Shown one piece after another: positions 1 to 6,594 of a stretch of 64,000 nucleotides of DNA (positions are counted from its first letter, which is position 1; every line of letters begins with the position of its first letter). Source of the stretch: an uncultured Hellea sp. (GTDB lineage: Bacteria > Pseudomonadota > Alphaproteobacteria > Caulobacterales > Maricaulaceae); NCBI GenBank assembly GCA_938007935.1, contig CALLMD010000001.1, positions 62,001-126,000 of the forward strand, in the 5' to 3' direction. The notes under the pieces are model-generated. The model was given only the letters and a program-made list of their open reading frames with translations. It had not been told where the DNA came from and ran no database searches. Position numbers and translations under genes: made by a program.

Positions 1-2
1 AA

Positions 3-362
3 GGCAAATCAGGGAATGGCTTATATACAATATTCAACCATAAAGGCCCTGCTCTGGGGACAATTATGACGACCCTTCCAACATTAATGATGGGACTAGA
101 CCCTTTTTGGGGCCAAGAAGATGCCCCACTTCGTGTCACTTGGGCCGAAGCTGATAGTGCCAAGCTGGGCAGAACGGTAGCAGGTTTATGGGCTGGCCGA
201 AAAATAAATAGGAGCGTTGATGGCTATCATAGTCACAATATTGAAAAATTAAGCCTAAGGACTAAAGCCCCCGCTACATTAGACGGCGACTTTCTCGATA
301 TATCAGGACAGAAACTCAAAATTACGGCCTCGCGCCCTGTTACCTTTTGGTTATCCAAATGA
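3..362 (+). CDS. Lipid kinase of the diacylglycerol kinase family, C-terminal part (5' end outside window)
   Basis: The reading frame is open from the first complete codon at the left edge, so this is the last 119 residues of a longer protein and the internal ATG at 66 is not a start. The tail ends with the pattern typical of the DAGK/YegS C-terminal beta domain: a D-G-D-F-L-D-I stretch, then a short strand, then a strand rich in alternating hydrophobics (VTFWLS). The catalytic GGDGT region would lie outside the window and cannot be checked. The stop overlaps the ATG of the next gene (ATGA), so the two are translationally coupled. Because it abuts a ceramide operon, a ceramide kinase like Caulobacter CpgB is the likeliest role, but a diacylglycerol kinase is possible. 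Confidence 0.6.
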   Translation, partial: GKSGNGLYTIFNHKGPALGTIMTTLPTLMMGLDPFWGQEDAPLRVTWAEADSAKLGRTVAGLWAGRKINRSVDGYHSHNIEKLSLRTKAPATLDGDFLDISGQKLKITASRPVTFWLSK

Positions 363-1264
363 ATACGTTATCTAATCTTTTGCGCCAAGAAACAGCAGAG
401 CTCCCACTGCGCGTAGAAGCTGTCTGCGATATCATCGAGAACCGACACCCAAACCGCGTACAGGCTTTTATCTATTATGGCTCCTCATTGCGCGAGCTTG
501 ATAACCCAGAAAAAATGCTCGATTTTTATGTTCTCATTGATAGCTACCGAAAAACGCATAACTTTATTAGAGCGGGATTAAATGCCCTTATACCGCCCGC
601 TGTTTATTATGTTGAACATATTTGCGCAGATGGCGTGATAAGCACGTGCAAATATTCAATTATGTCTCTAACCGCATTTGAACGGCGCTGCTCGCAAAAA
701 GCCTTTCTCTCCCAAACATGGGGGCGGTTTTCGCAACCATGCGCGCTGTTAAGGTCCAAATCAAATGCGATTACTGAACGAGTAATTTTAGCGCGCGAAA
801 CAGCCATCCGGCATATTGCCATGGAGACAGAACCCTTATTCGAAGACAGCCCAACACCGCAAGAATTTTGGGCCCGCGCCTTTTATGAGAGTTATCGTAC
901 TGAACTTAGGCCTGAGAGCTCTGTCGAGCGTACGGCGGAATTTGTTGGTAAGTACCTGTCCAGATATGAACATGTGTCAGCTATTTTATATCACCTACAA
1001 GATGGCAAGATTGACCTTCCGAAAACTCGCAGAAAAGGCGCTAAACTACGTTGGTTCTTACGCCGTCTTCTCGGTAAGCCTATGACAGCTATTCGTGTAA
1101 TAAACAGCGCCGCGACATTTGATGGCGGATTAGATTACGTACTCCGCAAAGTCAAAAATCACTCAGGTGTCACGATAAAACCAAGTGCATTTCAACGCAA
1201 ACATCCAGTTTTATGCTCACCCATATTAGGATGGAAGCTTTGGCGTAAAGGCGCGTTTCGCTAG
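359..1264 (+). CDS. Tam41/Mmp37-like nucleotidyltransferase (possible CDP-lipid synthase)
   Basis: A 301-residue protein starting at ATG 359, which overlaps the previous stop as ATGA; an upstream TTG at 347 is open but less likely. It shows the Tam41 layout: an early GSS motif (YYGSSLRE) followed by the acidic nucleotidyltransferase strand LDFYVLID, a KTHNF segment like the Tam41 W-H-x-x-N region, KYSIMSL like the KYGVISL strand, WGRFSQP like the AGRLxKP helix, and a basic C-terminal helix (GGLDYVLRKVKNHSG) like the Tam41 tail. Tam41 makes CDP-diacylglycerol from phosphatidic acid and CTP. Beside a lipid kinase and a ceramide operon, the substrate could be ceramide-1-phosphate or another phospholipid precursor. 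Family membership is read by eye, and the substrate is inference. It ends tail to tail with spt, overlapping by three bases. Confidence 0.62.
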   Translation: MNTLSNLLRQETAELPLRVEAVCDIIENRHPNRVQAFIYYGSSLRELDNPEKMLDFYVLIDSYRKTHNFIRAGLNALIPPAVYYVEHICADGVISTCKYSIMSLTAFERRCSQKAFLSQTWGRFSQPCALLRSKSNAITERVILARETAIRHIAMETEPLFEDSPTPQEFWARAFYESYRTELRPESSVERTAEFVGKYLSRYEHVSAILYHLQDGKIDLPKTRRKGAKLRWFLRRLLGKPMTAIRVINSAATFDGGLDYVLRKVKNHSGVTIKPSAFQRKHPVLCSPILGWKLWRKGAFR

Positions 1265-2484
1265 GCTTGCAATTTTGCGCCCATTTCGGCCATTAACGAC
1301 CCCTGCTTATCTTTAAGGTCATTAAATGCTTTCAGAATGATATTGATATCTTCCTCGGTATGGGCTGCGGAGAGACTAATTCGGAGCAAACTGGAACTTT
1401 GCGGCGTTCCAGGCGGAACCGCGAGGTTCACATAGACGCCGTCCTCAATTAACGCATTCCACTCCATTGCAGCAACCGCCTCATTAGGACGCCGAACCGC
1501 AATAACAGGGCTTGCCTCTGCACAAAGGTCATATTGCATATCTGAGAGGCCTTTATGCAGCTGCTCTGATCTCACTTTTAGATTTGCGCGAAGATCTGCG
1601 CCGTGTTTGACCTTTTCGACCGCCGCTAAAGCCGCGCAAATATTGGCCGGCGTTGCTGAAGCGGTGAACATGTAAGGTCGCATAACTTTTCGTAAAATCT
1701 CAAATTCAGGATGACGAGAGGCGCAAAAACCGCCGACTGACGCCAAAGATTTTGAAAACGTCCCAGATATAAAGTCAACTTTATCCAAAACGCCTTGTTC
1801 TTCTGCAAGACCGCAACCAGTTGGACCAAAGACGCCATAGCTATGCGCTTCGTCTATAAAGAGATAACCGCCATGACGGTGCGTCACGTCAACAAATTCA
1901 TCAATCGGAGCCACATCACCAAACATGGAGTAAAGACCTTCGATCACAACAAGGGCATTCCCGCCTTCTATTTCCCCCTGTCGTCTGAGACGCTTATCTA
2001 AATCTTCAGGGTTATTGTGACGAAACCGAATGGTCGAAGCCCCTGTCAATCGTGTACCGTCGATAATACAGGCGTGAGCGTCCGCATCCATAAATACAAC
2101 GTCTTTATCACCCGCAAGACCTGATATCGCAGAAAGGTTGGTCTGATATCCCGTTGTAAAGACAATGCAGCTCGGCATTCCCAAATGATCGGCTAATGCT
2201 TTTTCCAAATCGATATGTTCAGAATAAGTCCCATTGGCTATCCGTGATCCCGTCGTACCTGTTCCATGATTATCAACGGCATTTTTTGCTGCGCTCATGC
2301 AGTCTTCGTCGAATGTTAAACCCAGATAATTATTTGTCCCAGCCAATAAAATTTCACGGTTTCCAATCCGGCCACGCGTTGTGCTGATTATATCATCAAA
2401 TTGAACTCCCAACGCATCCTTACCGATTTTCATCATTACATCTACACGAGCCTGTAGCGGAGCATATTTATCAAAGAGAGACAT
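1261..2484 (-). CDS. spt: Serine palmitoyltransferase (alpha-oxoamine synthase)
   Basis: A 407-residue PLP enzyme of the alpha-oxoamine synthase family that condenses serine with an acyl thioester to give 3-oxosphinganine, the first committed step of sphingolipid synthesis. Visible residues are the stacking His137 (DADAHAC), Asp211 in DEAHSYG, which contacts the PLP pyridine nitrogen, and the Schiff-base Lys245 in GTFSKSLASVGG. Relatives KBL, BioF and HemA share these residues. The call to Spt rests on the neighbouring acyl carrier protein, CerR-type reductase and acyl-ACP synthetase, which match the Caulobacter ceramide locus. It is the last gene of the leftward operon, eight bases after acpR. 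It is probably soluble, as are other bacterial Spt enzymes. Confidence 0.9.
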   Translation of the reverse strand: MSLFDKYAPLQARVDVMMKIGKDALGVQFDDIISTTRGRIGNREILLAGTNNYLGLTFDEDCMSAAKNAVDNHGTGTTGSRIANGTYSEHIDLEKALADHLGMPSCIVFTTGYQTNLSAISGLAGDKDVVFMDADAHACIIDGTRLTGASTIRFRHNNPEDLDKRLRRQGEIEGGNALVVIEGLYSMFGDVAPIDEFVDVTHRHGGYLFIDEAHSYGVFGPTGCGLAEEQGVLDKVDFISGTFSKSLASVGGFCASRHPEFEILRKVMRPYMFTASATPANICAALAAVEKVKHGADLRANLKVRSEQLHKGLSDMQYDLCAEASPVIAVRRPNEAVAAMEWNALIEDGVYVNLAVPPGTPQSSSLLRISLSAAHTEEDINIILKAFNDLKDKQGSLMAEMGAKLQA

Positions 2485-2492
2485 GTTTTACT

Positions 2493-2738
2493 CTATTCAG
2501 ACGTCAATTGAATAATAGCCGAGGTCAGCTCGCCGACAGTTTTGATATCGGACACCATTTCCATCGGGATAGATATATCGTAATGGTCTTCCAGCCCCAT
2601 AATAATGTCAAAAACAGCGGTTGAATCGACCTCAAGATCAGACATAATTCCGCTACTCATTTCAATCGGGCGATTTTTGGGATTGTAAGGCTCTAAAAGC
2701 TCACAAATTTTATCATAGACTTCATTACGTGTCGGCAT
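2493..2738 (-). CDS. acpR: Dedicated acyl carrier protein of the ceramide operon
   Basis: An 81-residue acyl carrier protein. Ser39 in the motif DLEVDSTAVFDI is the phosphopantetheine attachment site; the usual DSL is DST here. Helix pattern and length fit an ACP. It lies between spt and the CerR-like reductase with only short gaps, as AcpR does in Caulobacter, where it is loaded by AasR and presents the acyl chain to Spt. It is not the housekeeping fatty-acid AcpP, which normally sits beside fabG/fabF and carries DSLD. Confidence 0.88.
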   Translation of the reverse strand: MPTRNEVYDKICELLEPYNPKNRPIEMSSGIMSDLEVDSTAVFDIIMGLEDHYDISIPMEMVSDIKTVGELTSAIIQLTSE

Positions 2739-2757
2739 GGTCGTTTACTTTGTCTTC

Positions 2758-3672
2758 TTATTTAAATTTATAGGACGCCGCAGTTTCCCGAAGCGCATCA
2801 ATAAAGGGTGTTGCGCCTTGAATCACATCCTGACTTGACCAGTCCTCATAACGAAACTCTCGCAGTTTGCCTAGCGTCAAGTGACCAAGCCCGAATAAGC
2901 GTGAAGTAACAGACGTTATCCCTGCGACTGTTTTTATAATCGGGACGGGCACAGCAATTATGTTGACTGATCGTCCTAAAGCTTGTCCAGCCGTTGAAGC
3001 AAAATCAGGCCATGTCAAAGCTGGGACAGAACAGGGAACGACGATTTGCTCATCGTAATCTCCTTGCATAGCTCGCCGCGTAATATCATTGGCAAGGTCT
3101 TTGACATAAACCATCGCCATTTTGCGGGCTTGCCATCCTTCTCCGCCGACAACAGGTAATTTGCCTTTTGCTATAAAGTCAAAGAAAGGTTTCGTGGCCT
3201 TATCTCCTGGCCCGAAAACCGCAGGGGCTCGAATAATTGTCACTGGCCTATGAAACTTTGATCTAACACCCTCTTCGCCCGCTTTTTTTGAGCTGGCATA
3301 GTCTGATAATTGCGGCTGTGCGGCAGTTTGGGAGGAAAGAAGAATAAATCTAGTAACCCCAGCAGATTGCGCCTGCATTGCTAATTGAGTCGTCGCATCT
3401 CTATTGGTTGCCATCATTATCGAGCGTGTCTTTGCTTTAATCAACCCCGCCATATGCAAAACAATATCAGCGCCTTGCACAAGCTTTTCATCACAATCAC
3501 CTAATCCGCCTTGGCAAATTAAGAGGTTTTCGTGAGCTAAATCATCAAGTTTCGTTGGCGTGCGAGCTAAAGCACGGACTTGGTAACCCGCATCTAATAG
3601 CGAACTTATGACATGACGGCCAACAAATCCGGTTCCGCCCGTCACGGCTATTAGTCCCTGATGTTGGGGCAT
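2758..3672 (-). CDS. cerR: NAD(P)-dependent epimerase/dehydratase family, probable ceramide reductase CerR
   Basis: A 304-residue extended short-chain dehydrogenase. The N-terminal Rossmann motif is GGTGFVG (residues 12-18) and the catalytic pair is Tyr125-x3-Lys129 (YASSK), with serines at 113-114 serving as the third active-site position. In Caulobacter, CerR, the gene between acpR and aasR, reduces the 3-keto group of the acylated sphingoid base, so the order of reactions differs from eukaryotes. The same position in this operon supports that role. It follows aasR by nine bases. The alternative is a general nucleotide-sugar epimerase, which I consider unlikely in this context. Confidence 0.82.
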   Translation of the reverse strand: MPQHQGLIAVTGGTGFVGRHVISSLLDAGYQVRALARTPTKLDDLAHENLLICQGGLGDCDEKLVQGADIVLHMAGLIKAKTRSIMMATNRDATTQLAMQAQSAGVTRFILLSSQTAAQPQLSDYASSKKAGEEGVRSKFHRPVTIIRAPAVFGPGDKATKPFFDFIAKGKLPVVGGEGWQARKMAMVYVKDLANDITRRAMQGDYDEQIVVPCSVPALTWPDFASTAGQALGRSVNIIAVPVPIIKTVAGITSVTSRLFGLGHLTLGKLREFRYEDWSSQDVIQGATPFIDALRETAASYKFK

Positions 3673-3681
3673 GAGAGGCCG

Positions 3682-5433
3682 TTAGCCTGCCTCATTAGAG
3701 ACGACAGTTACAGGGCTATCAGCCTGTAAATCAATAATCTCGCCTTTGAGATATTTATCCTTTACACGCGCACGGGAGAGTTTTCCAGACGATGTGATAA
3801 TCATCGTCCCACGCGGAACGAGTTGCAACCGCACAGGCACACCGACTTCTAAACGAATAGCCGCCATGACAGCTTTATATATTTCATCAAGTAATTTAGG
3901 ATCGCGCGTGCGGCATTCAATAAGAAGCATAACCTCTTTTTCATCACCTATTCCGCCCATCGCGAAAGAACAGGCGCGTCCACAGCGATGCGGTGCCGCC
4001 GCTTGCGCTGCCCATTCAATATCTTGTGGCCAAATATTCCGGCCATGCCATAAAATAAGGTCCTTAAATCGTCCAGTGACAACCACTTGATCATCAAGCC
4101 AATAGCCCAAGTCACCCGTATCCAGCCATCCATCAGCGCTGAATGACGCTTCCGTCGCTTGACTATTTCGAAAATAACCTGGCGAGACACTTGGGCCCTT
4201 AATGCATATTCTACCAACTTTATTGCCAGCTAATACATTGTCATCAAAGTCACGGATTTCAACTTCATGACCTGGTAGAGCGAGGCCACAGGCTACAAAT
4301 GTGCGTCTGTTTTCAGGCCTTGTTAGTTCTGTAGCTTCAACCGCTTCCGACGTACGTTCATAGCGCTCCATATCAATCGTATGCTTCAAAAGCCCCTGAC
4401 CCGTTGGAGCGAAAGTCGCTGCCAAGGTTGTTTCAGCAAGACCGTAACTTGGTTTAAAGGCGCCTTTAGCAAAGCCCATAGGCGCAAACAATTCCTGAAA
4501 CTCTGTTAGAGGTTCTGGACGCACCATATCGCCGCCAATACCTGCAGCGCGCCAACTCGACAAATCGAGTTCGCGGTCATTACGCCAACGGCGTGTACAA
4601 AGTTCATATCCAAATGTCGGAGAATAGGAAAGTGTCCCTTTATGGTCCGAAATCAGCTGCAACCATGTGATTGGACGGCGCGTAAAATCTTGCGGGTCAA
4701 TATAGTCAACGCTTAATTGACTCATAAGCGGCGCCAACATAAATCCAATTAGACCCATATCATGATATAATGGTAGCCAGCTCGTCGCACGGTCTTCATC
4801 TGTCATATCCATACCATATTTGGTAATTGCATGACAATTTGCGGAAACTGATTTTTGCGTCCCGATGATACCTTTGGGAGAGCTAGACGATCCGGATGAG
4901 TATTGAATGTAACACAAATCATCTGGCCCAAATGGACGCAGACCATCACCTGCAGGCAAATTATCTAGGTCCTCAAACGTCATGACGGGTATAGCCTGAT
5001 CATTAAGCGCCGAGCTCATAATAGGTTCCATGGTCGCGGGACAGAATAGTGCATGGAAATCACCCGTATCAGCCATGCGTTGCAATTGACGCTCGTAAGA
5101 GCTTCGCCCCCCCAGTGTTACAGGCAATGGCAATGGCGCCGGCACAAGGCCTGCATATTGGCAAGCCATAAAAATGATCGCAAAGTCAGGCGTAGATACG
5201 GCAGCCAGACCTATGCGCGAATCCTTATCCGCAAATTTAACGAGGCGTTTAGCAAGCTCTTTAGCTTTCACCTGTAATTGCGCATAAGTTAAAACGGTTT
5301 TTAGCTTCGCGCGGCCGTCAAAATAGTTAAACCCAGTGTCACAGGTTGCGGCATAATCAAGGGAATCGCATAATGTTCGAAAATCTGCGTGCCGTATAGC
5401 TTTCCCACGAGATGTCGGCGTCGGTTGGGTCAT
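3682..5433 (-). CDS. aasR: Fatty-acyl-AMP ligase type acyl-ACP synthetase of the ceramide operon
   Basis: An adenylate-forming enzyme of 583 residues from ATG 5433. It has the P-loop-like motif YSSGSSSSPKG, the FAAL-typical LPLYHDMGLIG, TGDLGY, GRFKDLI, and a C-terminal SSGKLSR carrying the catalytic lysine. It should adenylate a fatty acid and load it on the downstream AcpR. A longer frame starts at TTG 5493, but that codon is the first triplet of a consensus -35 box, and the -10 box lies inside the extension, so the extension is not expected to be translated. It is the first gene of the operon aasR-cerR-acpR-spt. Confidence 0.85.
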   Translation of the reverse strand: MTQPTPTSRGKAIRHADFRTLCDSLDYAATCDTGFNYFDGRAKLKTVLTYAQLQVKAKELAKRLVKFADKDSRIGLAAVSTPDFAIIFMACQYAGLVPAPLPLPVTLGGRSSYERQLQRMADTGDFHALFCPATMEPIMSSALNDQAIPVMTFEDLDNLPAGDGLRPFGPDDLCYIQYSSGSSSSPKGIIGTQKSVSANCHAITKYGMDMTDEDRATSWLPLYHDMGLIGFMLAPLMSQLSVDYIDPQDFTRRPITWLQLISDHKGTLSYSPTFGYELCTRRWRNDRELDLSSWRAAGIGGDMVRPEPLTEFQELFAPMGFAKGAFKPSYGLAETTLAATFAPTGQGLLKHTIDMERYERTSEAVEATELTRPENRRTFVACGLALPGHEVEIRDFDDNVLAGNKVGRICIKGPSVSPGYFRNSQATEASFSADGWLDTGDLGYWLDDQVVVTGRFKDLILWHGRNIWPQDIEWAAQAAAPHRCGRACSFAMGGIGDEKEVMLLIECRTRDPKLLDEIYKAVMAAIRLEVGVPVRLQLVPRGTMIITSSGKLSRARVKDKYLKGEIIDLQADSPVTVVSNEAG

Positions 5434-5464
5434 TATGTATCCCGCTTCGCAACGAGCGCCTCCG

Positions 5465-5493
5465 ATTAAACTGGAGGTGGGGCGCTCTGTCAA
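5465..5493 (-). promoter_or_regulatory. Sigma70-type promoter of the ceramide operon
   Basis: Reading leftwards, TTGACA (5493-5488) is followed after exactly 17 bases by TTTAAT (5470-5465). This is a perfect -35 and a near-consensus -10 at ideal spacing. Transcription would begin near 5458, about 25 bases before the ATG at 5433. Confidence 0.7.
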
Positions 5494-5652
5494 AAAAGTC
5501 CTTTTAAGGCTTTACCCCTAGAAGTAAAGCCACACCTAACACACGAAAAATTACTCCGTTTTCACGCCTTGATACAAAATGTGACACCAAGCCAGCATGA
5601 GTTCACGTAATTGTGTGTGACAGTGAGCAAGAAGATCGTTAAAGCGCCTCAT

Positions 5653-6594
5653 ATGAATGCACCTATTGATCCGCGTAAATTTCAAAACCCGTCTATCACA
5701 GCTAAAGGTGAAAAGCGGGCCTCCGTCTTTTTTAAAGACCTAACCACATTTTGGTTTAATTCTGGATCGCTTTGTAATATTGAATGCGCCAATTGCTATA
5801 TCAAAAGCAGTCCAACCGCAGATCATTTCGTTTATCTGACCCCAGAAGACATGACGCCATATCTGGATGAAATAGACCATCTTGGATATAAGCCTATTGA
5901 AATTGCCTTTACGGGCGGTGAGCCTTATCTAAACCCGCACATGATACGCCTGTCTGAAATGGCGCTAGAGCGTGGCCACTCTCTTTTGGTTTTAACCAAT
6001 GCCATGAAGCCTATGATGCGCCCACGCGTTCAAAAAGGCTTGCTAGACCTGCAATCACGCTATCCAGACAAAATGACTTTACGCGTTAGTTTAGACCATT
6101 TTAGCGAAACAGAGCACGACGCGGAACGCGGCGTAGGAAGCTTTGCCATTGCCCTTAAAGGGATGAAATGGCTGACAGAACACGGATTTACGCTCAATAT
6201 TGCAGGCCGCGCCATGTTCTCGGAAAGCGAAGAGGCCGCGCGTATTGGCTATGCTGATCTTATCAAAGCTGAAGGCTGGAACATTGATGCCTATAATCCC
6301 GGCGCCACAATTTTATTTCCAGAAATGGATGAAACCGCAGACGTGCCTGAAATCACAGTTGCCTGTTGGGGTATTTTAGATGTGCATCCTGACAGCATGA
6401 TGTGCTCCTCATCTCGTATGGTCGTCAAACGCAAAGGCGAAGACACACCCGCAGTTCTGGCCTGCACGCTTCTTTGGGATGACCCGCAATTTGAGATGGG
6501 TAAAACACTCAAAGAGAGCCTCGGACCTGTGAAACTTAACCATCCGCATTGCGCAAAATTCTGCGTTTTAGGCGGCGCAAGCTGTTCGGCTTAA
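5653..6594 (+). CDS. Radical SAM protein with extra C-terminal cysteines, function unknown
   Basis: From ATG 5653 this is a 313-residue radical SAM enzyme; GTG codons at 5611 and 5623 are alternative starts and none has a clear ribosome site. The 4Fe-4S motif is C41-x3-C45-x2-C48 (CNIECANC), followed by TGGEPYLNP, the usual SAM-contacting GGE segment. Six more cysteines lie in the last 80 residues (including HCAKFC and GGASC), suggesting an auxiliary Fe-S cluster of the SPASM/twitch type. I do not recognise a substrate. It diverges from the ceramide operon over about 200 bases and converges with dcd, overlapping at the stop codons. Confidence 0.75.
   Translation: MNAPIDPRKFQNPSITAKGEKRASVFFKDLTTFWFNSGSLCNIECANCYIKSSPTADHFVYLTPEDMTPYLDEIDHLGYKPIEIAFTGGEPYLNPHMIRLSEMALERGHSLLVLTNAMKPMMRPRVQKGLLDLQSRYPDKMTLRVSLDHFSETEHDAERGVGSFAIALKGMKWLTEHGFTLNIAGRAMFSESEEAARIGYADLIKAEGWNIDAYNPGATILFPEMDETADVPEITVACWGILDVHPDSMMCSSSRMVVKRKGEDTPAVLACTLLWDDPQFEMGKTLKESLGPVKLNHPHCAKFCVLGGASCSA

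Follow-up and report, generated by a model that had tools for sequence, protein, structure and literature searches.

The left end (positions 1-5493) of a 64,000-nucleotide stretch from the genome of an uncultured Hellea sp., called the window below, carries a run of ceramide genes, which faces a lipid kinase gene and a Tam41-like gene on the opposite strand. It is very probably the right half of a ceramide phosphoglycerate (CPG) cluster of the Caulobacter type, cut by the window edge, and its Tam41-like gene is CpgC. Since the protein combines the fold of Tam41 with a conserved CTP site, is strictly tied to serine palmitoyltransferase (SPT) in one class, and occurs in genomes which retain CdsA, its role could be narrowed to activation of a lipid in the sphingolipid branch; a plausible product, which the evidence somewhat favours, would be CDP-ceramide. 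Nucleotide activation of ceramide-1-phosphate by CpgC has already been proposed (PMC11324152, 2024). New are the match to Tam41 in structure, the pattern of conserved residues, the nesting of the genes across genomes, the check for CdsA, exceptional genomes without SPT, and a gene fusion. Gene content, gene order, fold, conserved residues and co-occurrence are what the analysis itself shows.

The CpgC-like gene and its protein family

The window corresponds to G000:C1:62001-126000, where G000 is the source genome (2.94 Mb, 42 contigs, 92% complete); the 16 kb to its left were also fetched and read for cluster context. The following genes were found:

1..362, plus strand: 3' part of a cpgB-like ceramide kinase gene of the DAGK/YegS type (DAGK_cat, GGDGT)
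359..1264, plus strand: cpgC-like gene with Tam41 fold (position, fold match, family profile, PF09139 matches of the family)
1261..2484, minus strand: spt, serine palmitoyltransferase, 407 amino acids (NF047599, SPT structures in the PDB)
2493..2738, minus strand: acpR, dedicated acyl carrier protein, 81 amino acids (PP-binding)
2758..3672, minus strand: cerR, reductase of the SDR type, 304 amino acids (Epimerase, place in the operon)
3682..5493, minus strand: aasR, fatty acyl-AMP ligase/acyl-ACP synthetase (NF006624)

All six had been placed here by the initial annotation, and open reading frames and library models agreed with it. The four minus-strand genes form a single run, as expected of a Caulobacter-type cluster. 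Spt passed the NCBIfam model for serine palmitoyltransferase, NF047599, with 553.6 bits (cut-off 500), and its closest solved relatives were bacterial SPTs (377.5 bits for 2x8u versus 196.4 for the best KBL). AasR passed the fatty acyl-AMP ligase model NF006624 with 674.8 bits (cut-off 600); its reading frame was called from a TTG, and the match begins at residue 24, near an internal ATG at 5433. AcpR matched PP-binding over the cut-off (E 2.1e-6), and CerR is an SDR/epimerase protein (Epimerase model, E 4.1e-19).

The whole kinase gene spans G000:C1:61433-62362 (309 amino acids) and starts 568 bp left of the window edge. Its protein contains the GGDGT motif and matched DAGK_cat over the cut-off (E 9.2e-15) and TIGR00147 (YegS/BmrU) under the curated cut-off (1.4e-13). 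The CpgC frame as listed covers 347-1264; translation more probably begins at the ATG at 359 (301 amino acids), in an ATGA overlap with the kinase stop. Residue numbers given here refer to the 305-amino-acid version from TTG 347. The stops of the CpgC gene and of spt overlap in CTAG at 1261-1264. Kinase tail and Tam41-like gene, as annotated, are parts of a ceramide and head-group cluster, on the opposite strand and ending against spt.

By itself, the CpgC protein of the window matched no Pfam model, and therefore the label "Tam41-like" had to be judged from the wider family and from a structure. An alignment of 54 rows was used, which consisted of the window protein and 53 members chosen by hand from the 80 best of 584 confirmed CpgC loci in named genomes; these 80 loci lean towards the window protein. 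With E values of 1 or lower, 24 of the 54 members matched PF09139, the best of them at 7.8e-9, and the profile of all 54 matched the Tam41 structures 6ig2 and 6ig4 with E about 9e-6. When the AlphaFold2 (AF2) model of the protein (pLDDT 92.3) was submitted to Foldseek, the top five PDB rows were all Tam41. Superposition on 7ecd, Tam41 with CTP-Mg, gave a VIA Z of 18.6 over 225 residues of the 272-residue chain at 2.9 Å; 6ig4 and 6ig2 followed with 16.1 and 15.7, and the top row other than Tam41, an aminoglycoside nucleotidyltransferase, reached 8.1. The family matches to PF09139, the profile and the fold bear out the label. The window protein has the Tam41 fold and stands outside PF09139 membership, as the gathering score was missed. 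As a detector of the CpgC family PF09139 was discarded: it was over the cut-off in none of 289 genomes of the class, with one sub-threshold match, and the family is invisible at that cut-off.

Invariant in all 54 rows are Y44, G45, S46, D59, K102, R127, Y183, E186, R188 and E190, and, in a C-terminal block, T257, F258, Y264, K268 and H272. Y44, G45, S46, D59, K102, R127, Y183 and R188 align with the same residues of Tam41 in HMMER, where the N-terminal piece with YGS and the aspartate is not significant alone. Of the three acids typical of nucleotidyltransferases of this fold, Tam41 is described as retaining a single one (PMC11646218). CpgC likewise keeps D59, the position two residues later being a tyrosine in 49/54 rows, so that one catalytic-site acid together with conserved basic residues is present, the pattern given for Tam41 in the same paper.

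In Caulobacter, CC_1161 (CpgC) carries an InterPro domain like that of CDP-DAG (CDP-diacylglycerol) synthases (PMC11324152). Since the Tam41-like gene is placed as CC_1161, between kinase and spt, and has the Tam41 fold, it is CpgC; the comparison was made with the description of the Caulobacter protein. The initial annotation had suggested a route from kinase over nucleotide activation to the head group. This order fits the fold and the distribution, but the nucleotidyltransferase is not an addition to the Caulobacter scheme, since place and fold make it CpgC.

A nucleotidyltransferase fold would also suit an enzyme which activates a small molecule, phosphoglycerate or another phospho-alcohol, instead of a lipid, and CpgD, which belongs to the same cluster, does activate phosphoglycerate (PMC12275187). 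This alternative appears improbable, since CpgD already performs such a reaction, CPG is formed without CpgD (PMC12275187), and the top fold matches of CpgC are lipid-activating enzymes, well above the rest.

Distribution of CpgC and serine palmitoyltransferase

CpgC was sought in the 289 genomes of the class, in 41 relatives and in the named genomes; CpgA was counted as present from at least 100 bits, and 64 more class genomes had weaker matches only. In the class, SPT was over the cut-off in 39 genomes, CpgC was present in 34 and CpgA in 20, the 20 lying within the 34 and these within the 39 with no exception. A partial SPT in G246 (495 bits, just below the cut-off) was left uncounted; this genome is without CpgC. 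The relatives showed the same nesting (CpgA in 12, within CpgC in 15, within SPT in 18). In 23 of the 34 class genomes the distance between CpgC and spt is at most 2 kb, the two genes being convergent in 22, and in the other 11 they are apart; the tie is therefore more than linkage, and CpgC as a mere hitch-hiker beside spt was ruled out.

CdsA was present in every one of the 34 class genomes with CpgC, which excluded CpgC as a replacement for CdsA. It could still be an auxiliary CDP-DAG synthase merely travelling with sphingolipid genes: its closest solved relatives make CDP-DAG, and some distant CpgC genomes lack a detected SPT. Against this speak the CdsA count, the restriction of CpgC to genomes with SPT in the class, even where unlinked (11/34), and the loss of CPG from Caulobacter when CC_1161 is lost (PMC11324152), and we regard it as very improbable.

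Ceramide genes without the phosphoglycerate module do occur. The three relatives with SPT and without CpgC were read, and none of their stretches gave a match to CpgC: that of G325, with genes for bCerS-like protein, DUF2141 protein, Spt, AcpR, CerR and acyl-AMP ligase; that of G303, with bCerS-like, spt and acpR genes; and that of G317, where the contig ends after spt. CpgC without CpgA was seen among the relatives in G291 (76% complete), G305 (99%) and G308 (100%). The clusters of G305 and G308 (L120 in the latter, L118 in the former) contain CpgB, CpgC, flippase, HAD and CofC-like genes, and neither genome has a CpgA of this type; they would be natural cases in which only CPG is expected. 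The nested losses match a pathway order from ceramide to CpgB plus CpgC and then to CpgA.

The 80 best loci, with Parvularcula oceani as the top named match, come from Alphaproteobacteria, Gammaproteobacteria, deltaproteobacterial groups, Nitrospirota and Calditrichota. A CpgB-like gene directly adjoins CpgC in 59 of them by a strict count. Of the 73 loci where 1 kb or more of upstream sequence was available, 56 had a strict CpgB-like neighbour, eight a partial or offset match, and nine none.

Thirty named CpgC loci had no spt in the fetched stretch. The genomes of 26 were sent for a search and 25 were searched; SPT was found elsewhere in 17, and in eight none was over the cut-off. Two of the eight were also without CdsA and are probably incomplete; the remaining six are metagenome assemblies labelled Deltaproteobacteria (five) and Gammaproteobacteria (one). 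The best SPT scores in the eight were 277 and 295 bits in two, at the level of related enzymes, and 22 to 27 bits in four; G328 and G344 gave no match. A bCerS-like gene was present in G328, G342 and G344 and not in the other five. G344 (L096) consists of one contig, 3.65 Mb long, with a bCerS-like gene and no SPT match; its CpgB-like frame is short, with 146 amino acids. Six rows labelled as SPT-less form one group in the tree with support 100/99 (L044, L050, L067, L082, L090, L096), of which L044, L050, L067 and L096 had their genomes searched, L082 bears the label without a genome search, and the genome of L090 is probably incomplete; the assemblies of L044, L050, L067, L090 and L096 carry the label Deltaproteobacteria. 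In this group CpgC may serve another lipid, or an SPT of another kind may be present. The initial annotation had named conservation of the Tam41-like gene without spt across related genomes as grounds for refutation; no such case occurred among relatives (SPT over the cut-off in 34/34 genomes of the class and 15/15 near ones), and some were seen farther away, 8/25, with the two probably incomplete genomes included.

A possible route through CDP-ceramide

Loss of CC_1161 abolishes CPG in Caulobacter (PMC11324152), and the genes known to be required for it are those of CpgB and CpgC, while CpgA and CpgD are reported as not needed (PMC12275187, PMC11324152). The activities of CpgB and CpgD have been demonstrated, as reported in PMC12275187, CpgD making CDP-glycerate. 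An NDP-activated ceramide formed by CC_1161 was proposed in 2024, and direct attachment of the head group was considered energetically not very favourable (PMC11324152). Figure legends of PMC12275187 and PMC13228409 lead from ceramide-1-phosphate to CPG by CpgC with an unidentified mechanism, and the latter still gave it so in May 2026. For this step the fold of CpgC offers a hypothesis.

The following sequence of events could be envisaged. AasR, AcpR, Spt and CerR, together with a bCerS-like protein, would form dihydroceramide, which CpgB would convert to ceramide-1-phosphate. CpgC (359-1264), with its Tam41-type active site, would combine ceramide-1-phosphate and CTP to CDP-ceramide, and this energised donor would be used by a transferase not yet named for the first phosphoglycerate lipid, i.e., ceramide phosphoglycerate. 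CpgD would provide CDP-glycerate, the CDP-alcohol phosphotransferase CpgA would add a second unit, and a flippase and an LptF/LptG-like pair might export the finished lipid in the direction of the outer membrane. CDP-ceramide as the product of CpgC, the enzyme consuming it, the head group of this organism and the transport steps are what we infer. The mechanism as a whole, with CDP-ceramide made by CpgC on the way to the head group, appears somewhat more probable than not, and the CDP-ceramide step itself is a plausible intermediate stage for which the balance is slightly to moderately favourable. A more specific version, namely a soluble CTP:ceramide-1-phosphate cytidylyltransferase of the Tam41 fold making CDP-ceramide, along with a head-group transferase which in this genus is joined to an exporting flippase, is offered tentatively, at a little under even chances.

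Several points weigh against this pathway. The window protein has no match to PF09139, and a fold match, here of a predicted model, carries no information on the substrate. The Fisher P values for co-occurrence (2.7e-39 and 4e-22) ignore shared ancestry, 9/73 CpgC loci are without a CpgB-like gene upstream, and 8/25 distant CpgC genomes have no SPT over the cut-off. Moreover, CPG forms in Caulobacter without CpgA and CpgD, so that a further transferase is needed if CpgC only makes CDP-ceramide, and the source genome, at 92% completeness, has as PF01066 genes only PgsA, a degenerate PgsA-like paralogue and CpgA.

Alternatively, CpgC itself might join glycerate or phosphoglycerate to ceramide-1-phosphate without release of CDP-ceramide, for example by activation and transfer in one enzyme. 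The genetic requirement for CpgB and CpgC and the published legends are compatible with this, and the invariant C-terminal block, which is situated at the margin of the region aligned with 7ecd (model 16-258) or outside it, could serve a second function. The energetics quoted above for direct attachment and the conserved CTP site of the Tam41 type speak against it, and we consider such a joining enzyme unlikely.

If CDP-ceramide is indeed formed by CpgC, it would represent an activated sphingolipid of a new type, and sphingolipid activation here would use the chemistry which mitochondria employ on the way to cardiolipin. No report of CDP-ceramide was found in the literature searched, with most subscription papers lying outside the search. 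In Caulobacter, life without lipopolysaccharide is reported to be aided by such anionic sphingolipids (PMC12275187).

Genes to the left and comparison with known systems

Outward from the window edge the plus strand carries the rest of the kinase gene and genes for LptG-like and LptF-like permeases (under the NCBIfam curated cut-offs). The minus strand follows, with genes for a DUF2141 protein, the bCerS-like protein, a MobA/CofC-like nucleotidyltransferase, an 833-amino-acid CpgA fusion, a HAD-IB phosphatase and a CpgD-like nucleotidyltransferase. Two of these are needed below:

G000:C1:57272-58441, minus strand: bCerS-like gene, about 3.6 kb left of the window edge, positioned as CC_1154
L003:26-2527 (G000:C1:54026-56527), minus strand: putative flippase of the MOP type joined to a CDP-alcohol phosphotransferase of the CpgA type, 833 amino acids (C-terminal PF01066)

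Gene ends in this region overlap or lie within a few bases of each other, which argues for two operons diverging between DUF2141 and lptF. The N-acyltransferase bCerS is absent from the window, as the initial annotation had stated; the bCerS-like gene lies about 3.6 kb beyond its edge. The protein, between the CofC-like and LptF/G genes, belongs to one protein cluster in 34/80 best loci, and no Pfam or NCBIfam model covers it; it is called bCerS-like from its position. Extension to the left for a CDP-alcohol phosphotransferase and a phosphatase, as had been suggested, yielded both (CpgA, HAD-IB). The CpgA domain (PF01066) and the CpgD-like protein (PF00483) were over the cut-offs; the latter matched the structures 1jyk and 4jd0, of which 4jd0 was the reference structure found for Caulobacter CpgD (PMC12275187). 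Beyond the CpgD-like gene are an aspartyl/asparaginyl-hydroxylase family gene and a cyclopropane-fatty-acid-synthase-like gene (L002:3651-5717, G000:C1:49651-51717), perhaps for modification of lipid chains. On the other side, a radical SAM protein adjoins aasR (window 5611-6594, plus strand; all NCBIfam matches sub-threshold). A scan for sigma-70 promoters and terminators gave counts near the shuffled mean (19 versus 17.6; 13 versus 10.3).

In six of six genomes of the genus in which the cluster was read, the CpgA domain is preceded, within one protein, by an N-terminal part of about 460 residues. Of five other genera of the family, three have CpgA as a gene of its own, and in two the stretch lacks it. 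Frames from whole genomes agree: with CpgA, 832-846 amino acids in eight of nine of the same genus and 680 in the ninth, versus 385-426 in three other genera. The N-terminal part looks like a putative transporter of the MOP superfamily. A model of the homologue from L031, of low confidence with a pLDDT of only 64.9, had 49 of 50 among the matches listed titled MATE, MOP, WzxE or MurJ; Pfam polysaccharide flippase was matched by one of 12 members (E 9e-5), and a PDB profile search with this part gave no match. Free-standing relatives occur in the same clusters, and two Lysobacterales loci (L069, L109) have them next to CpgC and spt; a potential flippase, CC_1166, lies within the Caulobacter region (PMC11324152). 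The fused flippase and transferase suggests that completion of the head group and export are coupled.

The CpgA domain has an intact D..DG..AR...G...D...D motif and weak NCBIfam matches to PIPS (phosphatidylinositol-phosphate synthase) and IPCT-DIPPS, far under the curated cut-offs. PF01066 revealed no PssA in the source genome (92% complete), its three genes being those of the PgsA pair and the CpgA fusion. PgsA adjoins its paralogue, which has a degenerate DG..AR motif, beside an apparent uvrC (L127; G000:C7, about 22.3-23.5 kb).

A search of conserved neighbourhoods in the 80 best loci for a transferase using CDP-ceramide brought out no new one. The CDP-alcohol phosphotransferase motif was present in 33 of these loci, and a second such enzyme in nine (L047, L048, L051, L055, L059, L064, L080, L089, L098; L051 and L064 are a single organism). 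In L047, L048, L055, L059, L089 and L098 the second enzyme (DSVDGKLAR) is found beside LptF/G-like genes and the CpgA type (DTVDGKLAR) beside CpgB-CpgC; the DSVDGKLAR type is a candidate for the other transfer step. Neighbour clusters beyond the known genes were a metallophosphoesterase near CpgC (29/80 loci) and, named by eye, an ABC transporter (17 loci), a hydroxylase-like protein (14) and a HIT-like protein (13).

Likeness to Caulobacter was judged from the kinds of genes, their order and published descriptions. For the region CC_1152-CC_1168 the same gene set is listed (PMC11324152): a single run of spt, acp, reductase and acyl-ACP synthetase, kinase and CpgC next to spt, bCerS-like, CofC-like, CpgD-like and CpgA-like genes, and an LptF/LptG-like pair. 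Different here is the place of CpgA, which stands behind the putative MOP flippase in the bCerS operon and not beside cpgB; the HAD phosphatase is in the same operon, whereas 29/80 other loci have the metallophosphoesterase near CpgC. With the CDP-DAG synthase Tam41/TAMM41 (6ig2, 6ig4, 7ecd; PF09139), CpgC shares the fold over about 225 residues, YGS, the single acid and conserved Lys and Arg; it differs in that PF09139 is not reached, in its own invariant C-terminal block, and in its occurrence with SPT in genomes which keep CdsA. The CpgA domain resembles enzymes of the DIPP synthase and PIPS type in its intact CDP-alcohol phosphotransferase motif, but it is part of a sphingolipid cluster, is joined to a putative flippase, and scores far under the cut-offs for those enzymes.

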